This document shows positions 240 to 22,077 of a stretch of DNA of 51,641 nt, in pieces; within the stretch, counting starts at the first letter, position 1, and each line of letters opens with the position of its first letter. The DNA comes from Acidaminococcus intestini DSM 21505 (lineage in GTDB: Bacteria; Bacillota; Negativicutes; Acidaminococcales; Acidaminococcaceae): positions 1 through 51,641 of the forward strand of contig NZ_AULA01000014.1 in NCBI RefSeq assembly GCF_000425045.1, read 5' to 3'. A model generated the notes under the pieces. It searched no databases, was not told the DNA's origin, and saw only the letters and a program-made list of their open reading frames with translations. Made by a program: the position numbers and the translations under genes.

Positions 240-1028
240 GTGGATGCCGTCTATGTCCACTTTTTTATGCAAAAATGGGGTGAGGAAAGAATATTTCCTC
301 ACCCCAACATTTATTATAGAACCGTTATTCAATGCCAAGAAGCATTCGGCGCTTTTGAAGGTAAGAAAAAGGAACCGGATTTGCGCGTTATGATGGGCCT
401 GTGGCCTAACGTTGTCCAGATTGTCACGACTGAAGACACGGGCATCAAGACTTTTGCTGATATCAAAGGCAAGAGAGTCGGTGTTGGTGCCCCAAACTCT
501 GGCGTTGAACTAAATGCCCGTATGATTTTTGAAGCCAATGGCATGAGTTATGATGATGCTAAGGTTGACTACTTGTCCTATGGCGAAGCCATCGATCAGA
601 TTAAGAACGGTCAGTGCGACGTTGCTTTTGTAACGAGCGGTCTTGGCAACGCAACCATTAAAGAACTAGGTACGATGAAAAAGATTCGCTTTATCCCTAT
701 TGACGGGAAAGCTATTGAAAACTTGACTAAGAAGTACCCGTTCTATATGCCATACAGCATTCCTAAGACTTCCTATGATACCGAAGTCGATACGCCGACG
801 GCTGCTGTTATGAATGTTATGCTTGTTGATAAGAAACTGCCGGATGATGTTGTTTATGACATTCTGACAGGAATTTATTCTGAAAAAGGACTTGCCACCA
901 TCGGTGCTTCCCACGCAACGGCAAAACGTGAAATTAAACTGGATACGGGCCTCCGTGGCATTAAGGGAACTCAGCTGATTCTCCATCCGGGTGCTGAAAA
1001 GTTCTGGAAGGAAAAAGGAAAGCTCTAA
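240..1028 (+). pseudogene. TAXI-family TRAP transporter solute receptor, 5' end lost to IS insertion
   Basis: The open frame (GTG at 240, 262 residues) is receptor-like only from about base 325 onward. From there it has family features: LRVMMGLWPNVVQIVTTED, GKRVGVGAPNSGVELNAR, a VDYLSYGEA segment, and a C-terminal LHPGAEKFWKEKGKL. Full TAXI receptors have about 310-330 residues with a signal peptide and an N-terminal lobe, so roughly the first 100 residues, including the export signal, are missing. The first 25-30 codons are IS-derived. The product would lack a signal peptide and half of the binding site, so it is probably non-functional. It is followed after 6 bases by the DUF1850 gene and then by the permease, the usual TAXI-TRAP order. 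The permease may therefore be an orphan unless another receptor serves it. Confidence 0.8.
277..311 (-). terminator. Terminator-like hairpin inside the ISL3 element end
   Basis: A perfect 12-bp stem (277-288 with 294-305) and a 5-base loop are followed, on the reverse strand, by ATTTTTGC. It lies between the presumed outer end of the element and the transposase start. Read in the transposase direction it would stop transcription entering from outside the element. On the forward strand there is no T-run after it. Confidence 0.5.
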
Positions 1029-1034
1029 TCCAGG

Positions 1035-1580
1035 ATGAAAGGCAAACAAAAAATTGCCTTGTGTTTGGTCTTTCTGCCCCTTGCCATTGGACTTTTGGCC
1101 TGGTGGCATTGGGCAAGCCAAACCGTCATGAGAATCAAAAATTATGATACCCAGCACATCTATGTTGAGTTCCCTGCCAAAGCTGGGGATCGTTTATTTT
1201 TTGGTTGGATTCATTCACTCGAACATATTCACTGGCATGAGTACTTCCACATCGCTCCGGACCATTCATTGATTCTTGATACCATCTCGTTTCCTGCTTT
1301 TGGGGCAGGAATCCCAGAAAATAGAGGGAAGAAAACATGGGTGGATGAGAAGGGCAACATCTTTATGGATGAAATTGACCAGTCATTTCCACGGATTGAC
1401 TGGATCAACTCCCATTACGCGACACGGAAAATCAAGCTCAATGACGAGCTTATCACCAGTGGCAGACTCCTGCCGGAACATACTCGATTGATTCTTGTAA
1501 TTGAAGAGAGGGGATTCTTTGATGGAAGATTTGAAGAAAGCATCCACAACCAACCCTACCTCGGCAAGTTCTTTCAGTGA
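1035..1580 (+). CDS. DUF1850 family protein of a TAXI-TRAP operon
   Basis: A 181-residue protein with one N-terminal membrane segment (about residues 7-27, LCLVFLPLAIGLLAWWHW) and an extracytoplasmic domain. The segment FGWIHSLEHIHWHEYF fits DUF1850, whose members are almost always encoded between TAXI-type receptors and fused TRAP permeases. Their exact role is not known; they are presumed accessory to the transporter. The gene starts 6 bases after the truncated receptor and overlaps the permease start by 59 bases, so the three were one transcription unit. The C-terminus includes VIEERGFFDGRFEESIHNQPYL. I rely on motif and context. Confidence 0.7.
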   Translation: MKGKQKIALCLVFLPLAIGLLAWWHWASQTVMRIKNYDTQHIYVEFPAKAGDRLFFGWIHSLEHIHWHEYFHIAPDHSLILDTISFPAFGAGIPENRGKKTWVDEKGNIFMDEIDQSFPRIDWINSHYATRKIKLNDELITSGRLLPEHTRLILVIEERGFFDGRFEESIHNQPYLGKFFQ

Positions 1581-3549
1581 TGCACCACTTAATAAGGATG
1601 GTGTCATTACCGGTGATATGTCCGAAGAAATGATGGCTAAAACAACGGCCATTATTGAAAAGGTAGATAAGGAATCGGCGACCCGTAAATTTACTGGCGT
1701 CATGCAATCGTTCTTTTACATTTTTTGTATCCTTGTTTCGCTTTATCATCTTTATACGGCTATCTTTGGTCCTCCTGTGACTTTGGTGCATCGGAGTCTT
1801 CATGTGGCCATGATGACGAGCTTGTGTTTTTTGATGTATCCGATGCGCAAGAAATCCAGTCGGACGAAACCTTCTATTCTTGATTGGATTTTGGCGCTCG
1901 CTGCGTTCGCAGTTCCAATCTATATCTATACCGATTATCTCGGTGTCGTGGAACGAGCTGGCCGAGCCAGTCAGACTGATATGATTATGGCTACGCTCCT
2001 TGTTGCCCTGGTCCTCGAAGCGACCCGCAGATGCAGTGGGAAGGCTTTGCCTCTTTTGAGTATTGGCTTCATTCTATACGGAATATATGGCCGTGAGTTT
2101 CCCGGCATGTTTATGCACCGGGGATACGACTGGCTGAGCCTTTCGAATCATTTCTTTGCCAACACGGAAGGTATCTATGGCACGTCGGTCAACGTTTCGG
2201 CAAGCTATATCTTCCTTTTCATTCTTTTTGGCTGCGTGATGACAAAGTCAGGAATGGGTAAATTCTTCAACGATATATCCCTTGCACTCGCTGGTCATAC
2301 AAAAGGCGGTCCGGCCAAGGTTTCTGTTGTCGCTGCGGGTCTTTTGGGTTCCATCAATGGCAGTGCCGTTGCAAATGTTGTAACGACGGGATCCTTTACC
2401 ATTCCGCTTATGAAAAAGACCGGTTACAGTGCCGAATTTTCTGGTGCTGTATCGGCCGCGGCTTCTGTCGGCGGCCAGCTCCTTCCGCCAATCATGGGAG
2501 CGGCGGCCTTTATCATGGCAGAAATTTTGGGTGTCAAGTATTCAGAAATCATTGTATGGGCAGCCATTCCGGCACTTCTTTACTACATGGGTATTTTAAT
2601 TCAGGTTCAACTGCGTGCTTCTAAGGATGGGCTTGTAGGTGTCCCTAAATCACAACTGCCTAAAGCTATGGAAGTATTGAAAGCACAGGGCCATTTGATT
2701 ATTCCCATTCTGTTCCTTCTGTATATGCTCTTTTTCTCAGGTTCTACCGTTGTTTATGCTGCCGTTCTGACAATTGGTGTTACGATTGTCGTTGCAGCTG
2801 TGAAAAAAGCAACGCGAATGAGCCTTAAACAAATTGTTGATGCTTTAGCCGATGGAGCTAAACAGACCGTCAGTGTGGCAATGGCTTGTGCTTGTGTCGG
2901 TATTGTCGTTGGCGTGTCCTCCAAGACTGGTTTTGGCCTGACCATGGCAAATACCATTATCAGTTTGGGCCAGACATCCATTCTCTTTACCCTCGTCTTT
3001 ACCATGGTGACGTGCATGATCCTCGGCATGGGGCTTCCTTCCATTCCGTCCTACATCATCACGTCCTCCATTGCAGCACCGGCACTGTTTAAGCTGGGGA
3101 TCCCGAACGCATCGGCCCATATGTTCAGCTTCTACTTTGCCATGTTTGCAAACCTCACGCCCCCTGTTGCCCTGGCTGCCTTTGCGGCAGCTGGCGTTTC
3201 TGGCGGCAATCCCATGAAGACGGGGTGGACAAGCGTACGTCTTGCTATTGCAGGCTTTATCATTCCGTACATCTTTGTGCTGTCCCCACAGCTCATGCTC
3301 ATTAATACGACCCTTGCAGAAGGGCTTCTGACAACGGCGACGGCAGCACTTGGTGTATTCCTTCTAGCAGTTGCCTGTGAAGGCTACGTCTATGCACCGG
3401 TTGCTCTCCCTCTTCGAGTAGTGGCCCTTGCTGGGGCATTGTGCCTCATGATTCCGGGCTTCCAGACCGATATCGTTGGTGCGGCTGTGCTTGTGGGTCT
3501 GATTTTGATTCAGAAAAAGAAAAAAGCCGGTCTGAAATCAGCTGCGTGA
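1522..3549 (+). CDS. TRAP transporter permease, fused small and large subunits (4TM/12TM type)
   Basis: A 675-residue polytopic membrane protein. A four-helix DctQ-like part (about residues 60-170) precedes a DctM-like part of about 12 helices. DctM features include GLLGSINGSAVANVVTTGSFTIP in segments around residues 275-300, the GGQLLPPIMGAAAF loop, and LGMGLPSIPSYIITSS near 500. These are hallmarks of the fused TAXI-type permease that imports organic anions using a sodium or proton gradient and an extracytoplasmic receptor. I chose the ATG at 1522 because GAGAGGGG lies 8 bases upstream; a TTG at 1501 is an alternative. Its own receptor gene is truncated upstream, so activity depends on a receptor elsewhere. 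A strong terminator follows. Confidence 0.85.
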   Translation: MEDLKKASTTNPTSASSFSDAPLNKDGVITGDMSEEMMAKTTAIIEKVDKESATRKFTGVMQSFFYIFCILVSLYHLYTAIFGPPVTLVHRSLHVAMMTSLCFLMYPMRKKSSRTKPSILDWILALAAFAVPIYIYTDYLGVVERAGRASQTDMIMATLLVALVLEATRRCSGKALPLLSIGFILYGIYGREFPGMFMHRGYDWLSLSNHFFANTEGIYGTSVNVSASYIFLFILFGCVMTKSGMGKFFNDISLALAGHTKGGPAKVSVVAAGLLGSINGSAVANVVTTGSFTIPLMKKTGYSAEFSGAVSAAASVGGQLLPPIMGAAAFIMAEILGVKYSEIIVWAAIPALLYYMGILIQVQLRASKDGLVGVPKSQLPKAMEVLKAQGHLIIPILFLLYMLFFSGSTVVYAAVLTIGVTIVVAAVKKATRMSLKQIVDALADGAKQTVSVAMACACVGIVVGVSSKTGFGLTMANTIISLGQTSILFTLVFTMVTCMILGMGLPSIPSYIITSSIAAPALFKLGIPNASAHMFSFYFAMFANLTPPVALAAFAAAGVSGGNPMKTGWTSVRLAIAGFIIPYIFVLSPQLMLINTTLAEGLLTTATAALGVFLLAVACEGYVYAPVALPLRVVALAGALCLMIPGFQTDIVGAAVLVGLILIQKKKKAGLKSAA

Positions 3550-3763: not shown

Positions 3764-3797
3764 TTGAGGGGAAGGAATGCTTGGGAGGTGTCATGAT

Positions 3798-5072
3798 ATG
3801 ATGGATGCGCTAAAGAAAATGCTTGATGAATACAGGATTCCTCCTGTTATTGAAATCAAAACGAAATTTGATAAAACTCGTCTGCCTAAGGCAGAAGAGG
3901 TCCTTTTGGCGCGCCTTCAAGAGAAAAAACTCCCCATACGGCCAGACATGCGAATCGCTATTACAGGTGGAAGTCGCGGTATTGCGGATTATCCTGCCGT
4001 GATGAGGGCTGCGGTCCGTTATATCAAGGCATGTGGGGCTGTCCCCTTTATCGTTCCTGCCATGGGAAGCCATGGCGGGGCCACTGCAGAAGGTCAGGTT
4101 GAGGTCTTAAAGAATCTTGGCATTACGGAAGAGACCGTGGGTGCTCCAATCTATTCAAGTATGGATGTCGTTGAGATTGCCCGAACGGAACTGGGACTCC
4201 CTGTTTATTTGGACCGGATTGCATCGGAGGCAGATGGCATCCTGCTGCTCAATCGGGTAAAGACTCATACATCCATTTATGGTGCCTATCAGAGTGGTCT
4301 TGTCAAGATGATGGCTATTGGACTGGCTAAACACAAAGGAGCAGCGATGACCCACAGCCTTGGTACGGATTATCTGAACGATAACATGGCAAGGGTGGGG
4401 CTTCTGGCTCTTAAAACCGCTAAAGTCGTTGGCGGGATTGCGGTCATAGAAAATGGTTACGATGAACTCGCTGATGTCTATGCCCTCAGAAAAGAAGAAA
4501 TCCCAACAGAAGAACCCAAAATCCTGGAACGGGCCAAGAAAATGGTCCCGCGCATTCCCTTTGACGCGATGGACGTGCTGATTTGCTGTGAGCTAGGAAA
4601 AAATATATCAGGGACCGGGATGGACCCTGCAATTGTGGGAAGACCCATCAATAATCGGCCCAATGTTGGACCTGATGTGACGGAGCTGGGGATTCTCTCC
4701 ATTACGCCTCAATCCGAAGGCAATGGCAATGGAATCGGCATGGGAAACTTTATTTCCCGGCGCGTTCGGGACGAACTTGATGAATCCATGACGGTCATTA
4801 ATGCTTTGACGGGAATGAAGCCCTTTACGGCTATGATTCCGCCGACGATGGAAACGGACGAACTTGTTTTTAAAGCCTGTATCAAGGCCGCAGGAAGAAT
4901 TGCCCCGGAAGATCTTCGCATGGCGATTATCCGCAATACAGGGAACCTCGAACGAATCTGGGTATCAAAAGCCCTTGCAAAAGAACTCGAACCAGAGCGA
5001 GGATCCTTGGTAGGGGATTATTTCCCTGTTCCTTTTGAAGGTAATGGTGCCCTCAAACATTTTTGGAAATAA
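3798..5072 (+). CDS. LarA-family (lactate racemase domain, DUF2088) protein, copy 1
   Basis: A 424-residue soluble protein of the LarA family, whose founding member racemises lactate with a nickel-pincer nucleotide cofactor; homologues act on other 2-hydroxy acids. Family marks are the VPAMGSHGGATAEG segment (His about 92), RVKTHTSIYGAYQSGLVKMM (His about 157, candidate cofactor lysine about 170) and AIGLAKHKGA. In LarA the pincer lysine lies ten residues after the second His; here the nearest equivalent is 13 residues away. Start: the ATG at 3798 has GGGAGG nine bases upstream, better than the ATG at 3777. It is a monocistronic gene facing the AraC regulator, with a shared terminator. A paralogue is at 10766-12073. 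No larB, larC or larE cofactor gene is in the window. Substrate unknown; context suggests a dicarboxylic hydroxy acid. Confidence 0.8.
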   Translation: MMDALKKMLDEYRIPPVIEIKTKFDKTRLPKAEEVLLARLQEKKLPIRPDMRIAITGGSRGIADYPAVMRAAVRYIKACGAVPFIVPAMGSHGGATAEGQVEVLKNLGITEETVGAPIYSSMDVVEIARTELGLPVYLDRIASEADGILLLNRVKTHTSIYGAYQSGLVKMMAIGLAKHKGAAMTHSLGTDYLNDNMARVGLLALKTAKVVGGIAVIENGYDELADVYALRKEEIPTEEPKILERAKKMVPRIPFDAMDVLICCELGKNISGTGMDPAIVGRPINNRPNVGPDVTELGILSITPQSEGNGNGIGMGNFISRRVRDELDESMTVINALTGMKPFTAMIPPTMETDELVFKACIKAAGRIAPEDLRMAIIRNTGNLERIWVSKALAKELEPERGSLVGDYFPVPFEGNGALKHFWK

Positions 5073-10765: not shown

Positions 10766-12073
10766 TCAGATGATCTTCGTCAAAAGGTTGCCTTCATCGT
10801 CAAATTCCATATATTCAGGCGTATCTAGGGCTTCCAGTCCTTCATATTTGCCTTCTGCGACATCAGCATAATAGGCTTCGGAAAGCATGATGGTTCCGAT
10901 ATGGAGACTGTTGGGAATCCGGATGACACGGGCATGTACCTTATCAACCCCATTTAACGTGCGGATGCAGAACTGGATGCTTTCCTTGTCCGTTGCCATG
11001 ATGATAGGAAGCTCTGCCGAACGGATGACCGTGTTGGTAATGGTGTTGGGATACATCATCTGCAGGTCAATCTTGTCAAAGAGGCGCTTAGATATACAGC
11101 TTGCGAGGCCCGTCCCGAGGGCGTTGCCATGAGAAGCTTCCGTTAGATCAAGAAAACATGTCCGCTGCACGTTGACGCCGCCATGGGCATAAGGCGTGGA
11201 GAAGGTTCCTGTAATGTTGGGGTCAACGCCGGTGCCGCTGTAATTCTTCCCAATCTCGTCGACGATGAGTACATCGCATTCACCAACGATGAGACGGGGC
11301 ATATTGCCAAAGGCTTCTTTAAGAAGCCCCGGTTCCTCCGTTAGGATGTCATCCCGATGAACCGCTGCAATTCTAGCTGTTTCGTCGTAAGCATTTTCAA
11401 TGGTACAGACGCCCATGAGAATGGGGGCTTTATCGAGAATGACTTTGGCGTTTGCTGGAAGATTCTTGGCAATGACGCCCATGCCGTCGCTGTGGACGCT
11501 TTCGGCGCCTTCCTGTTTGCCGAGGCCAACAACCATCATCTTGCAGAACCCGCTTTCATAGGGGCCGCGAAAGGCATTGTGGGGCTTTACGCGGCAGGAG
11601 ACGATGATGCCGTCGGAATGATAGGCAATCTTGTCTAGGTAAACAGGTTTTCCCAGCTCGCTTGTTCCCAAAAGGACGGTTTCCATGGAGGAGCGGATAG
11701 GGCAACCCATGCTTTCTTCCGTAATGTTGTAGCCTTCAAGGATCTGGAGCTGTCCTTCTGCTGTCGCCCCGCCGTGGCTTCCCATGGCAGGAACGATAAA
11801 GGGATGAGCCCCCTTTTTCTTTACGAAATCAACAATAGCTTTAGTGATGACGTCGACATTGGCAATGCCGCGGCTGCCTGCCGTGATGGCAATGTTCATA
11901 CCTGGTTTGATGAGTGAAGCTACACGTTCGCCTTCCATGGCTTGCCAAACGGCAGCGGGGATATCTTCCCGTTTGATGAGAGGCCGGGGAAAGCTTTGCT
12001 TTGCCCGGAACATCTTTGGGATAGGCACGCCTTCAAGCAGTTTTGAAACAACACCGCCTCTAACAATTTCCAT
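10766..12073 (-). CDS. LarA-family (lactate racemase domain, DUF2088) protein, copy 2
   Basis: 435 residues, a paralogue of the protein at 3798-5072. It keeps the same core: VPAMGSHGGATAEG (His about 100), RVKPHNAFRGPYESGFCKMM (His about 165, candidate cofactor lysine about 178) and VVGLGKQEGAESVH. In copy 1 the last segment reads AKHKGA, so a basic residue near the site differs. The start is the ATG at 12073, preceded by AAGGAGGAAAAA; the frame is open further upstream but without a ribosome site. The start lies inside the last codons of the LysR gene (14-base overlap), so regulator and enzyme are co-transcribed. The two copies may act on different enantiomers or substrates. Specificity cannot be told from the sequence. 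Confidence 0.8.
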   Translation of the reverse strand: MEIVRGGVVSKLLEGVPIPKMFRAKQSFPRPLIKREDIPAAVWQAMEGERVASLIKPGMNIAITAGSRGIANVDVITKAIVDFVKKKGAHPFIVPAMGSHGGATAEGQLQILEGYNITEESMGCPIRSSMETVLLGTSELGKPVYLDKIAYHSDGIIVSCRVKPHNAFRGPYESGFCKMMVVGLGKQEGAESVHSDGMGVIAKNLPANAKVILDKAPILMGVCTIENAYDETARIAAVHRDDILTEEPGLLKEAFGNMPRLIVGECDVLIVDEIGKNYSGTGVDPNITGTFSTPYAHGGVNVQRTCFLDLTEASHGNALGTGLASCISKRLFDKIDLQMMYPNTITNTVIRSAELPIIMATDKESIQFCIRTLNGVDKVHARVIRIPNSLHIGTIMLSEAYYADVAEGKYEGLEALDTPEYMEFDDEGNLLTKII

Positions 12074-13004
12074 TATTTTTCCTCCTTGTGTTTCCTGCAC
12101 GTAAGGTAAATCCGGTAGCGGACACAAAATGGTCCAGTTCTTTTTCAAAATAAGTTAGCAGTTCCTTACGGACGGGATCGAGATCCCGATGGGTTACCTT
12201 ATACGTCACGCGGCGCGGTGGCGGCGTAGTCAGTTCGTAGAGAAATAGGCCTAAGCGATCCAAGATTCCAGAGTCCTTGAGATAGAGGGCAAAGGCTTCT
12301 GGAATAATGCTCCACGTTTCTTTTCCCAAAAGGGAAAGCAGGGCTTGGGATGTGTCCACCGTGGCAAGGGGACTTGCCGATGAACCGAAAACTTCTTGAT
12401 GCCAGGGCTCAAAATCTGGTGACCAGTCAGCAAGCAGCTCTTGACCAGGTGGGAGAGTGGTTGGATCAATAGGCTGGGGATGATTTCCAAAATCTCCAAC
12501 AACATAGTGTTCTTCGGAAAAAAGGGGATCTGTTACAAGAAGGGGACTGCGCCGCTTCCTTACGACCAGAGCCACGTCAAGTTGATGGGCTTCCAGGGAA
12601 TCATAGAGTTTAAAGGATGGGCTTGTTGTGTAAAAGAGGTGGAGCGGGGAAGAGCCCCCTTTGTCATTGAGCAGTCTTTTGTAAAACGGGCTCATGACCA
12701 TGCTGATGGATTCTATACTGCCGATACGCAGCATCTGGGACCGTCTTCCTAGGTGAAACCCCTTGATGGAACGGGATAGGTGCATCCAATCCTCGGCAAG
12801 AGGGATAAACTCCAACCCTGCTTCAGTAAGGTGAAAATTCCGTTTCCCTCGGCTGCGGCAAACGAGGATATTTCCCAATTCTTCTTCTAGCTGATGGAGA
12901 CGATGACTCAACGTGGATTGGGAAATGGTGAGCTTTTCGGCAGCCGTGGAAAAACTGTTGCATTGGGCAAGCGTCAAAAAAGTACGAATCAAATCAGTAT
13001 CCAT
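12060..13004 (-). CDS. LysR-family transcriptional regulator upstream of LarA-like copy 2
   Basis: 314 residues. The N-terminal winged helix-turn-helix (residues 1-60) shows FLTLAQCNSFSTAAEKLTISQSTLSHRLHQLEEELG; a periplasmic-binding-protein-like effector domain follows (about 90-295). Ribosome site CAGGAGGTG, six bases before the ATG. It overlaps the LarA-like gene by 14 bases in the same direction, an unusual placement because LysR genes are mostly divergent from their targets; here regulator and target form one operon. A perfect palindrome 26-49 bases upstream of the start (13030-13053) is a candidate autoregulatory site. The effector is likely a hydroxy acid. Confidence 0.85.
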   Translation of the reverse strand: MDTDLIRTFLTLAQCNSFSTAAEKLTISQSTLSHRLHQLEEELGNILVCRSRGKRNFHLTEAGLEFIPLAEDWMHLSRSIKGFHLGRRSQMLRIGSIESISMVMSPFYKRLLNDKGGSSPLHLFYTTSPSFKLYDSLEAHQLDVALVVRKRRSPLLVTDPLFSEEHYVVGDFGNHPQPIDPTTLPPGQELLADWSPDFEPWHQEVFGSSASPLATVDTSQALLSLLGKETWSIIPEAFALYLKDSGILDRLGLFLYELTTPPPRRVTYKVTHRDLDPVRKELLTYFEKELDHFVSATGFTLRAGNTRRKNNGNC

Positions 13005-13186: not shown

Positions 13187-14326
13187 TTATTGGAAGTCAG
13201 CTTGACAATAGACGCAGCGACCATCTTTAAATGTCATTTGAGGTACAAGAACATGATGGCCAATGAAGGTATGACCATTGCAATCTTCATAGGGGACTTG
13301 TTTTCTTTTATCTTTAAAAATTACAAGATCTGCAGGCGTACCGACCTTCAGCGTTCCTAATTCAGGATGGCCAATGAGATGTGCTGGTTTCTTTGTTGCT
13401 GTTAAGAGCACACTTTCTAAACTCATCCCGAAATCTACATATTTTGAGAGAATGCGGGGAAGGGAATGAAGGGGTTGAAGAAACCAACTGGATGCATTGT
13501 TATCGGAACTGATGATGTCTGGCACAAATCCTTCTTGGACTGCGTTTTGAGCCACGACGAGATCGAAATTGCTTCTTCCATTACAGGCATCGAAGAGGAC
13601 ACCGCGCCGGCGTGCTTCCCATAAGCCTTTGAGAACATGGCCATCTTTGTCTAGACAGGTATGTTTACCCTTTCCGTGGAAAATATGGCAGATGACATCG
13701 CCAGGACGGAGATACGATGCAAGTTCGTCAAGGGGAATGGGAGAATCGGTGACGTGAACCACAACACGGGTACCAATGCGATCCGCAATTTCAATGGTCT
13801 TTTTTAAGGAAATACGAGCCATTCCTGCAGAGAGAATATTTTTTGACAGTCTTGTTTTCAGTCCAACAAGGTTATGACCATACCTCTTGAATAGTGACAT
13901 AATCTTTTCTTCATCAAAATATTTGGGGTCTAGATTCTCTGGATATCGGTTATTGGATTGACCACCGGAGGCGACGAGCAGACAGTTAAGAATCCGTACG
14001 TCAGACATCGATATAATGGTCTTGTAGTAAAGTTCATAGCCACCCGCACCTGTTGTGCCTGCATCCACTGCTGTTGTAATACCAGTGCAGAATGAAGTCG
14101 CGTCTGGATTCACACCATTTTCACTGCCGCCTTCGTAGTAGTGGGTGTGATAATCAATGAGACCTGGCGTAATGAGACAATCTTTGGCATCGATGATACG
14201 ATAGTTTTTCGATTTGTGAGGGAGTGGCGTCTCCGCAATCTTTCCACCTATGATAGCAAGATTGGAATGAATCCAAGTGCCTGTTTCTGTATCCAAGAAA
14301 GTTCCATTCTTGATGAGAAAATTCAT
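13187..14326 (-). CDS. Amidohydrolase/deacetylase-family metallohydrolase
   Basis: 379 residues, amidohydrolase superfamily. Metal ligands are visible in order: HTH in PGLIDYHTHYYEGG (about residue 60), a lysine in LVGLKTRLS that may be carboxylated, His in VVHVTDSP, His in CHIFHGKGKH, and Asp in IISSDNNAS. The order matches the amidohydrolase/deacetylase subgroup that includes N-acyl-amino-acid and related hydrolases; some relatives are labelled dihydroorotase-like. ATG at 14326 with GAAAGGATG upstream is preferred over the in-frame ATG at 14335, which lies within that site. It follows the TRAP transporter genes by 52 bases in the same direction, so the transported anion is probably its substrate or product. 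Specificity is unknown. Confidence 0.75.
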   Translation of the reverse strand: MNFLIKNGTFLDTETGTWIHSNLAIIGGKIAETPLPHKSKNYRIIDAKDCLITPGLIDYHTHYYEGGSENGVNPDATSFCTGITTAVDAGTTGAGGYELYYKTIISMSDVRILNCLLVASGGQSNNRYPENLDPKYFDEEKIMSLFKRYGHNLVGLKTRLSKNILSAGMARISLKKTIEIADRIGTRVVVHVTDSPIPLDELASYLRPGDVICHIFHGKGKHTCLDKDGHVLKGLWEARRRGVLFDACNGRSNFDLVVAQNAVQEGFVPDIISSDNNASSWFLQPLHSLPRILSKYVDFGMSLESVLLTATKKPAHLIGHPELGTLKVGTPADLVIFKDKRKQVPYEDCNGHTFIGHHVLVPQMTFKDGRCVYCQADFQ

Positions 14327-14378
14327 AAAGTACATCCTTTCTAAAAGCCTTGATGGCAGGCATCAAGGCTTTTGTAAA

Positions 14379-16709
14379 TTACTGCTTTTTGGTTTGTGCA
14401 ATTGCGTCCATGAGTTGGTCAACAATTTCATTACCTACATCGCGCCGGACCATTTGCTGTACGACTTTGCCTTTTTGGCGAATTTCTTCTACGACAGAGG
14501 GATCCAGCGTAATAATCTGATCACCTGCGTCAATGCAGATCTGTTTGTATTCTTTGATGCTGGCATCCGCTTTGGTATTGCCATACGCAGTAGCGGCCGC
14601 AGCGCATTCGTCGACAAGCTGACGGACATTTTCAGGCAGAGAGTTATAAACATCCTTGTTCATGAAGAAGGTGATGATGTGCCCGATATGATTGGTTTCG
14701 ATTACATATTTCTGCACTTCCTGAACATTGTTTCCTACAATGTTCATATAAGGGTTTTCCTGTCCGTCAATGGTTCCTTGCTGCAGTCCCATGAATACTT
14801 CTGTGAACTGCATCGGTGTTGCTGCTGCACCTAGGGCATCCCAATAAGCAAGATGGTAAGGATTGGTCATAACGCGGATTTTTTGCCCTTTCAGATCATC
14901 CAGTTTTCTTACGATCTTGTTTGTTGTGAGTTGACGGAATCCAGCATCAGAGTAACCAAGCATTTGGATGCCGCCCGCATTGCAATACTGGTTCATGATG
15001 TTAGGAAAATTCCCGTTGAGGACGGCTCTCATTTGTTTTACATCATCAAATAGGTTTGGCATGTCAAAGACGGCATATTGGGGGATAAAATCAACAAGGT
15101 CTGTTGTCATTCCTGTCCCGATGTCTATTGAACCACTGACCACAGCTTCCGTAAATTCCGTTGTGTTGCCCAGCTGACCGCTTGGATAGATATCAACCGT
15201 GATCTTACCGCCGGATTTTTGGTGAATTAAATACGCAAATTCAGAGACCATCTTATAGTTGATAGATGAGTCAGCAACAGTCATGGCGGCTCTCCAATGG
15301 TATTCTGCAGGAATCGACGCAGGGTCCAAGGCTTTGATGTTTTTTCCATAAAAATCGGCATCAGCATCCAAAGCAGGTGTTGTCGTTGCTGCAACTTTTG
15401 CAGTATCTTTGGAGAGGGCACTGACAAGCCCCATAGAAATCCCTGGAACAGCGGTAATCAGACCTAGGGAAATCAGGAATGTAACGAGGAAGGGAACGAC
15501 GGAACGGGCAAGTCTCAGCATAGGAATTTTTGTCATGCCGGATGCAACAAAAAGATTGATTCCCATGGGAGGAGTAACCATACCAATAGCTAGGTTGCAG
15601 GTCATGATGATCCCAAAATGAATCGGGTCAACACCTAAGGCCGTAGCGACTGGAACCATGATTGGAGTTAAAATCATGATATTTGGAATGTTGTCGATGA
15701 ACATGCCGCATACAAGCATGACAAGGTTCATGATGAGAAGGACTGCATACTTATTGTCCGAAAGGGCAAGAACCCCTTGGCTGATGGTCTGAGGATAACG
15801 GAGCAGCGTCAATACCTTTGCAAAAGCGGCTGCTGCAGCGATGACGAAAAGAATATTGACGTATGTCTTGGCACCTTCCATAAAAACATGTCCAAGGTCC
15901 TTGATAGAAAGTGTTCGATAGACACAGATGCACACAAAAAGACCGTAGAAAACGCTGATTACAGCAGCCTCAGTAGGACTGCAGATGCCTGTATAAATCG
16001 TTCCCAAAATGATGACCGGTGTCATAAGAGCAAAGAAGCTGTCTTTAAAGAGCTTCCATAATCCGTCTTTGTGGAGCTTGGCATAGCTTTCCTGAAGTTT
16101 TTGTTTATCTTCACCATGCTTCTTGCAGTAAATGTAGCAATAAACCATGAGGGCAACGCCAATGAGGATGCCCGGAATGATTCCGGCAATGAAGAGTTTT
16201 GAGGGAGAACAGTTGGCGATGGAAGCGTAGACAATGTAAGATATGGACGGTGGAATGATGACTCCAAGTCCACCTGCAACTGTCACAATTGAAGTTGCAA
16301 AGATCTTGTCGTATCCTTTGGCTACGAGAAATGGAATTGTCATGGATCCTACAGCAGAAACTGTAGCTGGGGAGGATCCGGAAATAGCCGCATAGAACAT
16401 ACAGGTAACGACGACAGCGCAGGGAAATCCTGCCGTTTTATTGCCGATAAAATAACCAAAGAAATTGAAGAGTTTCTTCGAAATACCGCCCCTTGCCATA
16501 ATCATACCGGAGACCATGAACATAGGCACGGCTAGAAGGGTGAAGCTGTTTAGCCCCGAAAACATGGCACGGGCAACATCACTTACACCAAAGGAAAAGG
16601 CTTGATTTGCTAAATGGGGCAACATAGAGAGAAAGGAAAAAACGCCTCCAATGGGAAGTGCCGCGATGATAAGCACGAATAGAACTAGAAAGAAAATCCC
16701 GATACCCAT
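14379..16709 (-). CDS. TRAP transporter: large permease (DctM) fused to its solute receptor (DctP)
   Basis: 776 residues. Residues 1 to about 425 are a DctM subunit with about 12 helices: LNSFTLLAVPMFMVSGMIM, AISGSSPATVSAVGSMTIP, GGLGVIIPPSISYIVYA, and IGMVTPPMGINLFVASG. After a last helix and a linker of about 30 residues comes a complete DctP receptor (about 460-776), with YPSGQLGNTTEF, KIRVMTNPYHLAYWDALGAA, the carboxylate-binding Arg of that segment, and LQQGTIDGQENP. Receptors are normally separate secreted proteins; here no signal peptide is seen and the last DctM helix must place the receptor outside the membrane. There is no internal stop or ribosome-site start, so the fusion is real in this sequence. 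It shares one base with the dctQ stop (TAATG). Confidence 0.85.
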   Translation of the reverse strand: MGIGIFFLVLFVLIIAALPIGGVFSFLSMLPHLANQAFSFGVSDVARAMFSGLNSFTLLAVPMFMVSGMIMARGGISKKLFNFFGYFIGNKTAGFPCAVVVTCMFYAAISGSSPATVSAVGSMTIPFLVAKGYDKIFATSIVTVAGGLGVIIPPSISYIVYASIANCSPSKLFIAGIIPGILIGVALMVYCYIYCKKHGEDKQKLQESYAKLHKDGLWKLFKDSFFALMTPVIILGTIYTGICSPTEAAVISVFYGLFVCICVYRTLSIKDLGHVFMEGAKTYVNILFVIAAAAAFAKVLTLLRYPQTISQGVLALSDNKYAVLLIMNLVMLVCGMFIDNIPNIMILTPIMVPVATALGVDPIHFGIIMTCNLAIGMVTPPMGINLFVASGMTKIPMLRLARSVVPFLVTFLISLGLITAVPGISMGLVSALSKDTAKVAATTTPALDADADFYGKNIKALDPASIPAEYHWRAAMTVADSSINYKMVSEFAYLIHQKSGGKITVDIYPSGQLGNTTEFTEAVVSGSIDIGTGMTTDLVDFIPQYAVFDMPNLFDDVKQMRAVLNGNFPNIMNQYCNAGGIQMLGYSDAGFRQLTTNKIVRKLDDLKGQKIRVMTNPYHLAYWDALGAAATPMQFTEVFMGLQQGTIDGQENPYMNIVGNNVQEVQKYVIETNHIGHIITFFMNKDVYNSLPENVRQLVDECAAAATAYGNTKADASIKEYKQICIDAGDQIITLDPSVVEEIRQKGKVVQQMVRRDVGNEIVDQLMDAIAQTKKQ

Positions 16710-17236
16710 TAGTTCATCTCCTCCTTCTCATTTTCCATATCGTTTCCGTTGTCTGCTTCTGTTTGCGCTTTTCCTGTAAAGAGACGATATAGAAGCTGAA
16801 GGTAACGAACCATTCCAAGTGCAAGGCCTAAGGCCATGAAACGGTACAGCGAAGCGACTGGAATCCGGAGTGCAGGACTGGCCTGATGAATCAAATCAGC
16901 TTTTCCTATCAGTTCAATGGTTCCTTGAAAAAGAAACCAAATAATCCCCATCATGACAAGGGTGATGAGAATTTCAATATACTTTTGAATTGATTCAGGG
17001 AGCAGTCTTGTAAAGGTATCTACCTTTAGACTGACCCCTCTCCGAATGGCGCAAGGTAGGCAGAAGAATGCTGACAGTGCAAGCAGGTAGCAACATACCT
17101 CATCTGACCAAGTCAAGGCATGGTGGAATCCATAGCGCATGACAACATTTGCAAAGGACAGTACGCACATGACAGCGAGCATGATTGCCAAAATCAGGAG
17201 CTCGAAATTTCGGTCAAGCCAGTGTAATACTTTCAT
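16709..17236 (-). CDS. TRAP transporter small permease subunit (DctQ)
   Basis: 175 residues with four predicted helices (about 13-35, 48-66, 85-107, 125-150). The DctQ pattern includes FANVVMRYGFHHALTWSDEVCCYLLALSAF, split by the second helix, and a cytoplasmic positive stretch RRGVSLKVDTF. It ends in a charged tail. It forms the membrane complex with the DctM part of the fused protein encoded directly downstream (TAATG overlap). Start ATG at 17236 with AGAAAGGGG upstream. The divergent LysR gene 154 bases away is the likely regulator. Confidence 0.85.
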   Translation of the reverse strand: MKVLHWLDRNFELLILAIMLAVMCVLSFANVVMRYGFHHALTWSDEVCCYLLALSAFFCLPCAIRRGVSLKVDTFTRLLPESIQKYIEILITLVMMGIIWFLFQGTIELIGKADLIHQASPALRIPVASLYRFMALGLALGMVRYLQLLYRLFTGKAQTEADNGNDMENEKEEMN

Positions 17237-17390: not shown

Positions 17391-18362
17391 ATGGATATTA
17401 AGATGCTGGATTACGTCGTCATGATTGCCAAGTGTGAGAGCATTTCCAAAGCCGCTGAGAAACTTTATTTAACGCAGTCCGGTCTCAACCAGCAATTACT
17501 GAAGCTGGAACGCAATCTTGGAATCAAGCTCTTTGAGCGGGATCATCATCATTTTCGGATTACTGATGCAGGAAAAATTTATGTGCGCAATGCAATGGAA
17601 ATCCTCCGAATACAGCGTAATACCCTTATGCAGCTAAGTGATCTCAAGAATAATATCCATGCTGAAATTTCCATAGGTCTTACCCATGAACATGGAATTG
17701 ATCTTTTTACGGCTGTCTATCCTATTTTTCGTCATCATTACCCTTATCTTCGATGCAAATTGGCAGAACATATTGTACGTGATCAATATCAGCTCATCGA
17801 AGAGGGGGAACTTGATATTGGGATTGTCTTGACCAATATTAACACTGCAAAATGTTTTCCAGATTTGGTCTTTCATGAAGTTTATCAGGAAGATTTGCTA
17901 TTGGGGATTCCAATGACCCATCCTATGGCTAAAAATGCCGTACCTATTGGAACCGCCCAGCCGCTCCGAGTCACCGATATCCATCTATTTAAAGATGAGC
18001 CATTTTCTCTTATTTTTGAGGATTCTACCATGCGCAAGGAAGTTATTGATCCTATGTTTGAGGAAAATCAACTGCATCCTATCATTATGCTTGAAACGGC
18101 AATCAATACAGCACTCACACAAATTGTGGGTAAGGGGCTTTCCTGTACAATCCTCCCGCATTCTCGTGTCTTATCTAGTCCATATCGCGATGATTGTGCA
18201 TGGTTTCGCCTGCTTGATAATCCCGTGTGGAGTGTCTCTATCGTCCACAGGAAAGACTATAAACTCAGCAAATCAATATATGATCTTATCCGTTTGATGG
18301 ATCAGTATGGTCAAAAATTAGAAAAGATATTTTTAACTGAAAGTCCTGGCTATCTAAAATAA
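17391..18362 (+). CDS. LysR-family transcriptional regulator of the TRAP operon
   Basis: 323 residues with an N-terminal winged helix-turn-helix (SISKAAEKLYLTQSGLNQQLLKLERNLGIKLFER, read across the recognition helix) and a LysR effector-binding domain from about residue 90. It is divergent from dctQ and the fused TRAP gene, so it most likely controls uptake of the TRAP substrate. Its DNA-binding domain is strikingly like that of the regulator at 23411-24370, so the two are paralogues. The ribosome site is part of a perfect 12-base palindrome (GGAGGATCCTCC, 17379-17390) touching the ATG. A strong terminator follows. Confidence 0.9.
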   Translation: MDIKMLDYVVMIAKCESISKAAEKLYLTQSGLNQQLLKLERNLGIKLFERDHHHFRITDAGKIYVRNAMEILRIQRNTLMQLSDLKNNIHAEISIGLTHEHGIDLFTAVYPIFRHHYPYLRCKLAEHIVRDQYQLIEEGELDIGIVLTNINTAKCFPDLVFHEVYQEDLLLGIPMTHPMAKNAVPIGTAQPLRVTDIHLFKDEPFSLIFEDSTMRKEVIDPMFEENQLHPIIMLETAINTALTQIVGKGLSCTILPHSRVLSSPYRDDCAWFRLLDNPVWSVSIVHRKDYKLSKSIYDLIRLMDQYGQKLEKIFLTESPGYLK

Positions 18363-18414: not shown

Positions 18415-18954
18415 CCATATCTATGTGAGGGTAGATATGGGTGAGGGATTGCCTCATATCCCTAAAATAGCAGATTTTTCGGTAAAATGCAAATAATTTC
18501 AACTATAAGCATCTTTCTGAATTTTATTAGTAAAACAATGTAGATGAATAATATAAATATAATTTAACTGCCGAAAGGATGAACCAAAAGAACGTATGAA
18601 AATCATTCAATAAGTTTTTCTTAGAGAAAAACTAACTATTTAGAATTTGTGTTAATGGTATGCATGGAATAAAATTGAAATAACAGAAAATTACATCTTA
18701 TCCGAATAGGATTGCAACAGATGTAATACGAGGTGAATTGAGCGGTGATTGCCTTCTTTCATGATGAACTTTGCATTTTCTGAAATCATGGAAGAGTGGA
18801 AACCTTCAAAAAGTAATAATCTAAAGTAATGATCCTTGGAAGAATCTTCAAGCAGGTGTTGATTCTTCTGCAGGGCAGAAGAAATCTCATAAGATTCCGG
18901 ACTTCCTCTATCGTGGAAGGAAGACGGGCAATAAAGAAAAGGAGTGTTGAAGTT
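18415..18954 (+). promoter_or_regulatory. 540-base A+T-rich spacer and leader before tctC
   Basis: There is no convincing gene here. A perfect 9-bp inverted repeat (AGTTTTTCT/AGAAAAACT, 18613-18633) and A+T-rich -10-like sequences near 18550-18570 lie in the first half. The last 130 bases hold hairpin-forming arms such as GAAGAATC with GATTCTTC (about 18839-18872) and CTTCC with GGAAG. A frame runs open into tctC from 18829 but has no good ribosome site and would hide the lipoprotein signal. Most likely it is a long regulatory 5' leader; no known riboswitch class was recognised. Confidence 0.35.
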
Positions 18955-20031
18955 ATGGGTAAATTAGGAAAACGGATCATGGCATGTCTTAGCGCCAGTC
19001 TCGTTGTCATGTCCTTAGCTGGCTGCAGTGTCGGCGGCGGTGGTAATGGTGGGGATAAGAAATCAGTTGCAGGCAGCCTCAAAGGGAAAAACGTCCGGGT
19101 TGTCATCGGCTCCACTTCGACTTCTGGTGACTCTTACATGATGGCAGATCTCGTTACGCGCTATCTTTCCAAGAAGATGGGGTTCAAGGGTAAGGTTGAC
19201 GCCATCGGGAACTCTGCAGCACTTGACACCATTTCCAAGGCCAAGGGCGATGGTACGACGGTCATGATGTTCCACGATATGACTTTCTTGAGCGTACTCT
19301 TTGGCTCTGTTGATAAGAAATATGCCCTGGAAAACCTGACGGTTGGTCCTCGTATCGGTCAGAACCCTGGCGGTTGCTTTGGTGCTGCTAAGGATGCTCC
19401 GTACAAGTCACTTTCTGAAGTGACAAAATACTTGAAAGCAAACCCAGATAAGACGGTTTCATTTAACATTGAATCGGGCGCAACGAGCCATCTTGCTTTC
19501 GTTGCTTACTACCTTGATGTAAAGCGTAAGGAAGGCGATGCTGTTGCAAGCCGTATCAAAGCAATTGTTGGCGGCACGACGGCTGATAAGCTGCAACGCC
19601 TCTGGGACCGCAATGCTGACGTTATCTACGGTGATACCTCTGCTTTCGAACAGTATACCAAAGATGGTGTCGATGCTAAACTTGCAATGAACATGTTTGA
19701 TTCCTGCGGCAAGGTGAACGGTCTTAAAATTAACTCCATGGCTGAAGACGGAATTGAATTTGAAGGCAAACCCTTCGACTTTGCAAAAGATTTTGCCATG
19801 TACTTCCCGAAGAACATGGATGAAAAGGTTCTCAAAGAATATGAAGCGGCTATGGTTGAAATCGTAAAGGATCCGCAGTTCCAGAAAGACATGGCTGCCC
19901 TTTACTACAACACGTTGAAACCTGAAGAAGTAACTCTTCAGGCTTCCAAGGACTTCATCTATGGTAAACGTAAGATGTGTGAATCCTTGATTAAACAAGC
20001 TCCGGCTCTGGATACGCTGACCAGCCACTGA
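18955..20031 (+). CDS. tctC: Tripartite tricarboxylate transporter solute receptor (Bug/TctC), lipoprotein
   Basis: 358 residues. It starts with a lipoprotein signal (KRIMACLSASLVVMSLAGC, lipid-modified Cys24) and a glycine-rich linker. The mature part is a Bug-type receptor: GKNVRVVIGSTSTSGDSYM, LTVGPRIGQNPGG, TVSFNIESGATSHLAFVAYYL and TKDGVDAKLAMNMF. Such receptors capture carboxylates for the TctAB permease encoded downstream. The ATG at 18955 is chosen because of the ribosome site AAAGGAGTG and the signal peptide. Many Bug proteins are soluble periplasmic; a lipid anchor is a variation. A terminator-like hairpin separates this gene from tctB, so it is probably made in excess over the permease. 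Confidence 0.85.
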   Translation: MGKLGKRIMACLSASLVVMSLAGCSVGGGGNGGDKKSVAGSLKGKNVRVVIGSTSTSGDSYMMADLVTRYLSKKMGFKGKVDAIGNSAALDTISKAKGDGTTVMMFHDMTFLSVLFGSVDKKYALENLTVGPRIGQNPGGCFGAAKDAPYKSLSEVTKYLKANPDKTVSFNIESGATSHLAFVAYYLDVKRKEGDAVASRIKAIVGGTTADKLQRLWDRNADVIYGDTSAFEQYTKDGVDAKLAMNMFDSCGKVNGLKINSMAEDGIEFEGKPFDFAKDFAMYFPKNMDEKVLKEYEAAMVEIVKDPQFQKDMAALYYNTLKPEEVTLQASKDFIYGKRKMCESLIKQAPALDTLTSH

Positions 20032-20063
20032 GAACGGTCCTTCATCTAAGTGAAATCAAATGG

Positions 20064-20110
20064 CGCTTCCCGATGCGAAATGAAATAGAGGTCCTCGGGA
20101 AGCGTTTTTT
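20064..20110 (+). terminator. Intra-operon terminator/attenuator between tctC and tctB
   Basis: A perfect 10-bp stem (CGCTTCCCGA/TCGGGAAGCG) with a 21-base loop is followed by TTTTTT. It should stop a part of the transcripts after tctC, leaving fewer copies for tctBA. Confidence 0.8.
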
Positions 20111-20135
20111 ATGAAAAGAAAGAGGGGAAGAAAAT

Positions 20136-20573
20136 ATGATTAGTGTGGTTTATTCCACAGAGCACTTGCTGATGCCGAAAATCATCGGTACATTGCTCGT
20201 TATCATGCTTGCTGTCATAGTCCTTGTAGAAGGTCGGGAACGCAAGGCAGCAACCGGAAAATTCTTTGGCAGCTTTGGCCCGTTCTTCCGTGAAAATGCG
20301 GATTTCAAGAAACTTTTCGGCACGCTGCTCCTATTCATTGGCTACATTTTTGTTGTTGAAGAGGTTGGCTTTACGGTTACCAGCATTATTTTTGTATTCC
20401 TCTTCAATGTACTTTATACAGGTTGGAGTAAAAAGGCACTTCGAACGAGTCTTATAATTTCCATCCTGGCACCTGTCATTGTCAGTCTAATTTTTGGTGT
20501 TGCTTTCAATATTACGCTTCCCAGCGGAATTTGCAGTATCACCTTCATTGATTACGGCATCACCATTTACTGA
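20136..20573 (+). CDS. tctB: Tripartite tricarboxylate transporter small membrane subunit TctB
   Basis: 145 residues with four hydrophobic helices, for example LLFIGYIFVVEEVGFTVTS and ISILAPVIVSLIFGVAFNI, and a final segment LPSGI typical of TctB. It assembles with TctA in the inner membrane. Ribosome site AGAGGGGAAG. It lies between tctC and tctA (19-base gap to tctA), the standard order for this transporter type. Confidence 0.8.
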   Translation: MISVVYSTEHLLMPKIIGTLLVIMLAVIVLVEGRERKAATGKFFGSFGPFFRENADFKKLFGTLLLFIGYIFVVEEVGFTVTSIIFVFLFNVLYTGWSKKALRTSLIISILAPVIVSLIFGVAFNITLPSGICSITFIDYGITIY

Positions 20574-20592
20574 GAAAGGAGGATAGCCCATT

Positions 20593-22077
20593 ATGATTAC
20601 ATTTACTTTTACTCACGTTTTGGTCTGTCTCCTTGGTGTTATCGGCGGGATCGTCTTTGGCGCCATTCCGGGCATGACAGCTACTATGGCTGTTGCTGTT
20701 TTTCTGCCTTTGACCTATGCCTATGATATTCAGACGGCTATGTTCCTGCTCTTGGGTCTTTATGTCGGCGGGATTTCAGGCGGTCTTGTTCCTGCTATCT
20801 TGATTAATATTCCTGGTACGCCATCTTCAATCACAACGACTTTCGATGGCTTTCCTATGGCAAAACGAGGCGAGAGTGAACGTGCCCTGAAGATTGGGAT
20901 TCTCTCCAGCTTTATCGGAGGCATGATTTCCTTAGCCTGCCTAGCTCTTTTGACGCCAGTCCTCAGTGCCTTTGCCTTAAGTTTCAGTGCTGTTGAAAAG
21001 TTTCTCATTATTCTCTTTGCTCTTACAGTCATTGCTGCCCTTTCCAATGGACAGATGCTGCGGGGTATTTTTGCGGGATTCCTCGGCGTTTTCATCAGTC
21101 TTATGGGGATGTTCAGCGTTAACAATGCATACCGTATGGTTCCTGATTCCCTGATGACTTACATGCAAGACGGGTTCCAACTTCTGCCGGTCCTCATTGG
21201 GCTTTTTGCCATTGGCCAAATATTCGAAGAAGCAGAAGAAGGGATGACTTTTAATCTTAAACGTGTTGACGAAGGCGGAATTGAAGGAAAGAAATTTTCT
21301 CTCAGCGATTTCAAGGGACAAGGCGTCAATCTAATTCGTTCGGCTTTGATTGGGACTTTTGTTGGTGTCCTTCCTGGTGTTGGCGGATCTGCTGCATCCA
21401 TTTTGTCCTATGCACAAGCAAAAAGTTTTTCTAAACACCCTGAACTGATGGGAACAGGTGTCCCTGAGGGTCTTGTTGCTTCGGAGACCTCTAATAATGG
21501 TCTTACGGGCGGCGCTCTCATTCCACTTCTGAGCTTGGGTATTCCTGGTGACTCGACGACGGCTGTCCTTATTTCTGCCTTCATGTTTCAGGGTATTCAA
21601 GTAGGTCCGCTCTTTATTGCCCAGAACCCAGATACATGGAACTGCATTCTTGTTGGGATGCTTCTTGCGAACATCATTATGTTCCTTTGTATGTTCTATC
21701 CCATCAAGTGGATCAGCAGACTTGTCTATATTCCCAAACAGCGCCTTTATCCGGTCATCATGATGATTTGCATTGTAGGTGCTTACGCTACGAAAAATGG
21801 CCGTATCTTTGATGTGTGGACGCTTCTGGGATTTGGTATTGTTGGCTATGTGTTTGGTAAGATCCACATTCCATCGTCTTGTTTCCTCATCGGCTTTATT
21901 CTGGGTAAGGATCTCGAAAACTACTTCATCCAGTCTATTAGTGCCTCAAAGGGAAGCCTTGCGGTGTTCTTCTCTCGGCCAATCGGTCTTTTCATCTGGG
22001 TTCTCATTGCCATTTCCATCTGGTATTCCTTCTATAACGCCAGAAAGCTGAAAAAGCAAAAAGCTGCCCAACAGTAA
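20593..22077 (+). CDS. tctA: Tripartite tricarboxylate transporter large permease TctA
   Basis: 494 residues, about 12 membrane helices. The signature of TctA is clear: GIVFGAIPGMTATMAVAVFLPLTY at residues 17-40, GGLVPAILINIPGTPSSITTTFDGFPMAKRG near 62-92, and the repeat form GTFVGVLPGVGGSAASILSYAQAK near 260. It moves citrate-like or other carboxylates using an ion gradient and the TctC receptor. Ribosome site AAAGGAGGATAG. It is the last gene of the operon. Confidence 0.9.
   Translation: MITFTFTHVLVCLLGVIGGIVFGAIPGMTATMAVAVFLPLTYAYDIQTAMFLLLGLYVGGISGGLVPAILINIPGTPSSITTTFDGFPMAKRGESERALKIGILSSFIGGMISLACLALLTPVLSAFALSFSAVEKFLIILFALTVIAALSNGQMLRGIFAGFLGVFISLMGMFSVNNAYRMVPDSLMTYMQDGFQLLPVLIGLFAIGQIFEEAEEGMTFNLKRVDEGGIEGKKFSLSDFKGQGVNLIRSALIGTFVGVLPGVGGSAASILSYAQAKSFSKHPELMGTGVPEGLVASETSNNGLTGGALIPLLSLGIPGDSTTAVLISAFMFQGIQVGPLFIAQNPDTWNCILVGMLLANIIMFLCMFYPIKWISRLVYIPKQRLYPVIMMICIVGAYATKNGRIFDVWTLLGFGIVGYVFGKIHIPSSCFLIGFILGKDLENYFIQSISASKGSLAVFFSRPIGLFIWVLIAISIWYSFYNARKLKKQKAAQQ

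Follow-up and report, generated by a model that had tools for sequence, protein, structure and literature searches.

Natural fusions of the M and P subunits of TRAP transporters occur rarely; the example given, an Acidaminococcus intestini protein (UniProt G4Q5D7), is known from an AlphaFold model with P at the periplasmic side, on account of which HiSiaPQM was modelled as one chain (PMC9352664, section 9). The passages of that paper devoted to the fusion do not deal with its distribution, ancestry or function, and in the open-licence PMC literature we found a DctM-DctP fusion described in no other paper. The model systems of the DctP type are SiaPQM, which share the DctM and DctP families with the fusion but whose receptor is free and secreted (PMC9352664, PMC9971032). 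The M-subunit of P. profundum consists of 12 segments in an N-out/C-out arrangement, the last of which are assigned to the transport domain (PMC9971032); the helices of HiSiaQM are counted differently in PMC9352664, which places the N-lobe of the receptor on the stator and the C-lobe on the elevator. Covalent receptors have also been described in other settings. TRAP fusions of Q and P, which are rarer, are mentioned in PMC8276074; they likewise carry the receptor on a TRAP membrane subunit, but the partner is Q rather than M. In the TAXI-GltS fusions of Lachnospiraceae (PMC12344293), a binding protein is similarly joined to an elevator-type secondary transporter, although the families differ and the TAXI receptor is N-terminal to the GltS permease; the authors account for these fusions by noting that firmicutes have no periplasm. 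The importers OpuA (PMC11065425) and GlnPQ (PMC8025302) also hold a covalent receptor on a short tether, with an 11-residue linker in OpuA, but they are ATP-driven ABC systems, whereas the M-P fusion is a secondary transporter.

The locus analyzed here is located in a window of 51,641 nucleotides, by which we mean the whole stretch of DNA under analysis (contig NZ_AULA01000014.1 of A. intestini DSM 21505). A single ATG-to-stop frame on the minus strand (14379..16709; 776 amino acids plus stop) encodes DctM and then DctP in one chain. The DctM part (residues 1–437, 15399..16709, minus strand) contains a full-length match to PF06808 (residues 7–424, profile positions 1–413 of 413, E 1e-103), the receptor part (residues 465–776, 14382..15317, minus strand) a near-complete match to PF03480 (residues 475–752, profile positions 2–280 of 286, E 6.5e-76), and both TIGR00786, in the M part, and TIGR00787, in the P part, score above the NCBIfam cut-offs. 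The linker between them (residues 438–464, 15318..15398, minus strand) has no cysteine and, by a rule of our own, no lipobox. The sequence beyond the last M helix lacks a hydrophobic segment: for 19-residue stretches that begin within residues 431–776, the Kyte-Doolittle mean is at most 0.79. These observations bear out an earlier note on this DNA, which had read from the letters a complete DctM and a complete DctP in one uninterrupted frame, joined by a linker without a signal peptide. The separate exported receptor with its own signal that is a feature of DctP-type TRAP systems is missing from the fused chain, where the receptor is covalent and without a signal peptide; PMC9352664 had already documented an architectural variant of this kind. 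Compared by description only, G4Q5D7 and the window's protein are alike in genus and in the M-then-P order (PMC9352664). The M-P fusion is therefore already known, in kind and in genus; what is added here is its distribution, the existence of lipobox-bearing unfused orthologs, the constraint on the linker and a lipid-anchored baseline for the family.

The fused frame is present at its whole length in five of nine Acidaminococcus genomes: the window's own (G000) and G005, G007, G004 and G001, with proteins that are, respectively, 92%, 86%, 83% and 83% identical to that of the window. Fused records named Acidaminococcus fermentans (L041) and uncultured Acidaminococcus (L040) probably come from the same assemblies as G004 and G007 and were counted once. 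The fusion, which the earlier note had proposed to seek in related genomes, therefore recurs beyond the window. Among 59 genomes of the family, a DctP match within a frame of more than 700 amino acids was found only in these five, and in none of the 50 genomes from other genera. A junction query against 299 genomes of the phylum (E 1e-45) matched six genomes, with a fused frame only in the window's own, although a divergent fusion would escape such a query; in 398 genomes of the phylum searched with PF03480, there was no fusion among the matches listed (to about E 4e-91), the sole frame longer than 600 amino acids among them being due to a run of N. A separate search of 26 genomes, run without a positive control, yielded zero matches. 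Several candidates were examined and rejected. G008 drew suspicion because of an open frame 799 long, but its M ends at a stop that is followed by a lipobox, and its receptor frame is 366; at L042–L046, outside the genus, the query match extends across both domains, but there is no fused frame; at L050 (G077) and L054 (G305), M and P are unfused but in frame with each other, separated by just one stop, and so come close to a fusion. At L047, the frame is 383 amino acids long and matches M up to query residue 379, with unrelated-looking sequence beyond and no P match in the DNA as far as the contig end.

A structure model of the fused chain was obtained with AlphaFold2 from alignment A1, which comprises 50 rows (50 of 71 prepared segments, with the window representing L049), and has a mean pLDDT of 86.6 and a pTM of 0.72. 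Both domains appear as complete folds in this model: residues 3–437 span PpSiaM over its entire 427 residues (7qha_B; Z 43.0, rmsd 3.2, 33% identity), and alignments of the receptor to many solved DctP structures begin near residue 465, as with 7bbr (Z 39.8, rmsd 1.8, 309 residues). By homology to PpSiaM, the C-terminus of the M part would be outside the membrane, so that the export of P would require neither an extra helix nor a signal peptide; since the match of the M part to PpSiaM, with its N-out/C-out topology, is complete, the receptor should sit at the periplasmic face. Given the placement of lobes and domains in the described systems (PMC9971032, PMC9352664), the tether may connect a moving part with a fixed part.

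Six loci outside the genus (L042–L046 and L048) encode separate M and P proteins, with 73–77% and 66–75% identity, respectively. By title, they come from Candidatus Caccovicinus, which we take to be a member of the Clostridia, two entries named 'Clostridia bacterium' and three Anaerotruncus. The fused and the six unfused loci have a common gene order, with LysR upstream, then Q, M and P, and an amidohydrolase downstream; at L043, the LysR match covers its first 128 residues only. All six receptors of the unfused clostridial loci have a lipobox, located 15–38 residues before the start of the conserved domain, and in the fused chain 31 residues (438–468) lead from the PpSiaM-like part to the same conserved receptor motif. 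The signal region of the separate DctP at L043 is frameshifted as assembled, which could be a true change or a sequencing error. In phylogenetic trees, the fused rows form a single clade for both M (27 rows, 100/98) and P (28 rows, 94/100), and for P, 92% of the bootstrap trees have a single change. The trees were midpoint-rooted and exclude L047 (M of 383 amino acids, near a contig end) and the M of L048; the long-branch warnings concern neither the fused clade nor the clostridial rows next to it. The fusion probably arose once, and its distribution would suggest that the two genes were joined in Acidaminococcus, and not split in Clostridia, and that there may have been a transfer between the two groups.

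The earlier note had contrasted the fusion with a receptor that is free and in excess, a contrast that is a misfit for this lineage; its proposal that tethering would alter the way transport works is a conjecture. The DctP matches in the family number 88, namely five fused, 73 unfused and near full length, four fragments above the cut-off and six below it. Under our own lipobox rule, which is not SignalP and for which frames were chosen with a profile made from sequences of that family, a predicted lipobox follows a hydrophobic stretch in 71 of 72 unfused DctP of Acidaminococcaceae, the one further protein being omitted because it is at a contig end; the same rule is positive for 189 of 14400 shuffled N-termini (1.3%). 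The single exception, L107, is an ambiguous case with its start close to a contig end, and the other two DctP of the window's genome (L126, L131) are both positive. The first lipobox rule, as applied to other loci, was positive in 20 of 24; at L015 and L035, which it missed, the upstream-extended frame reaches past the 110-residue view, and L054 and L055, both from outside the family, have no lipobox. These counts suggest that the usual DctP of Acidaminococcaceae is membrane-anchored rather than free. A receptor that is free, as in the model systems, is then not the usual kind here, and the fusion most likely swapped one anchor for another. If Acidaminococcus is diderm, the explanation proposed for the TAXI-GltS fusions, the lack of a periplasm, would not apply to it.

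Arg612, which is kept in the fused receptor, aligns with the arginine of the SiaP KLRV motif, presumably the residue behind carboxylate specificity. A conserved arginine is reported to confer such specificity on TRAP receptors (PMC4646407). The best-scoring solved receptor, 7bbr, is by its title a sugar acid binder; the ligand is probably a carboxylate, and our guess is a hydroxy-acid or sugar-acid. Q is a separate gene, as in P. profundum SiaQM: the DctQ small permease (16709..17236, minus strand; PF04290, 81.4 bits vs 28.3) ends in a TAA stop that has one base in common with the ATG of the fusion. Downstream of the fused gene is a metallo-dependent hydrolase (13187..14335, minus strand) that scores above the PRK12394 family cut-off, and a LysR-type regulator (17391..18362, plus strand) is transcribed divergently; both have counterparts in the clostridial loci. 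The 43-nucleotide gap between the fusion stop and the hydrolase start (14336–14378) contains an inverted repeat, GCCTTGATG..CATCAAGGC, followed by TTTT, which resembles an intrinsic terminator within an operon. Elsewhere in the window, there are two LarA-like (Lar_N/DUF362) genes less than 10 kb apart (3777–5072, and 10766–12148 on the minus strand), of which the latter scores above the cut-off of nickel-pincer isomerase group 22. A TAXI-type TRAP set (240–3549) comprises an NMT1_3/TAXI-like receptor (240–1028), a DUF1850 gene (1035–1580) and a long DctM permease (1501–3549), and directly past the LysR gene is a TctC-TctB-TctA tripartite tricarboxylate set (18829–22077), the first gene of which has a lipobox-like LAGC.

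Nothing favours a junction created by a sequencing or assembly error, although the window's genome is a draft of 55 contigs: the same frame is found in four more genomes of the genus, of which G001 and G005 are single-contig assemblies, and the fused genes are near saturation at synonymous sites; the chance of such an error is negligible. For nine of the ten fused-gene pairs, the linker itself has a pS of 0.78–0.93 and a pN/pS of 0.16–0.32, while the tenth pair has a linker pS of 0.41 and zero amino acid changes. Since pN/pS across the ten pairs is 0.05–0.16 for M and 0.03–0.14 for P, the linker is less constrained than either domain, yet still constrained: it is under purifying selection at a near-saturated synonymous distance. 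The sole length difference in the linker among the fused genes is an in-frame insertion of two residues in L040. Because the frame is present in five of nine genomes, forms one clade and has a linker under purifying selection, the junction is not an assembly error, and the M-P fusion is real and conserved.

The linker could also be a site at which the fused chain is cut after insertion, with the freed receptor acting as an ordinary soluble DctP. Residues 435–446, the only ones with a pLDDT below 50, and the greater variability of the linker relative to the domains would be compatible with cleavage; the second half of the linker, however, shows conservation and a high model confidence, no cleavage signal stood out on inspection, and the product would be a soluble receptor in a family where all but one of the unfused receptors considered look anchored. 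We regard cleavage as unlikely. It is also conceivable that the fused receptor no longer delivers substrate and has instead a sensing or gating role at the permease, or that it is carried along without any activity. Nothing specific favours such readings, whereas the receptor fold is complete with its arginine conserved, the constraint on P is about equal to that on M, and the clostridial orthologs belong to ordinary Q-M-P loci, all of which makes these readings very improbable.

The explanation that we prefer, with good though not complete confidence, is a true two-domain M-P TRAP subunit that works with a separate DctQ, holds its receptor one-to-one on a periplasmic tether and descends from a Q-M-P operon with a lipoprotein receptor. 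In such a subunit, DctM would end outside the membrane and translation would continue into DctP, which would reach the outside as the C-terminal domain of the chain, with no signal peptide of its own. The short tether would keep the receptor 1:1 at the periplasmic face, presumably with 1:1 turnover; the receptor would close around its ligand and, presumably, dock onto its own Q-M unit, where the elevator domain would take over the ligand in the manner suggested for SiaPQM. The ancestral operon would have lost the stop codon of M, the spacer after it and the signal of the lipoprotein, and the protein tether most likely took over from the lipid anchor, fixing the ratio at 1:1.

More tentatively, and with somewhat less than even confidence, we suggest that in this two-membrane lineage a lipid-anchored receptor able to visit many permeases became an obligate one-to-one partner on the moving elevator domain, with a transport cycle in which the receptor need not leave the permease. 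The question addressed is what share receptor exchange, excess and diffusion have in TRAP transport. The fusion makes fused and lipid-anchored receptors comparable, and the norm of the family, which the counts suggest to be an anchored receptor, shifts the baseline for that comparison. A conserved fusion whose close orthologs are unfused but lie in an identical gene order also provides a system of fixed ratio in which the docked state could be studied structurally. If the obligate one-to-one reading is true, the fused and unfused operons would constitute a natural test pair for the need for receptor exchange.
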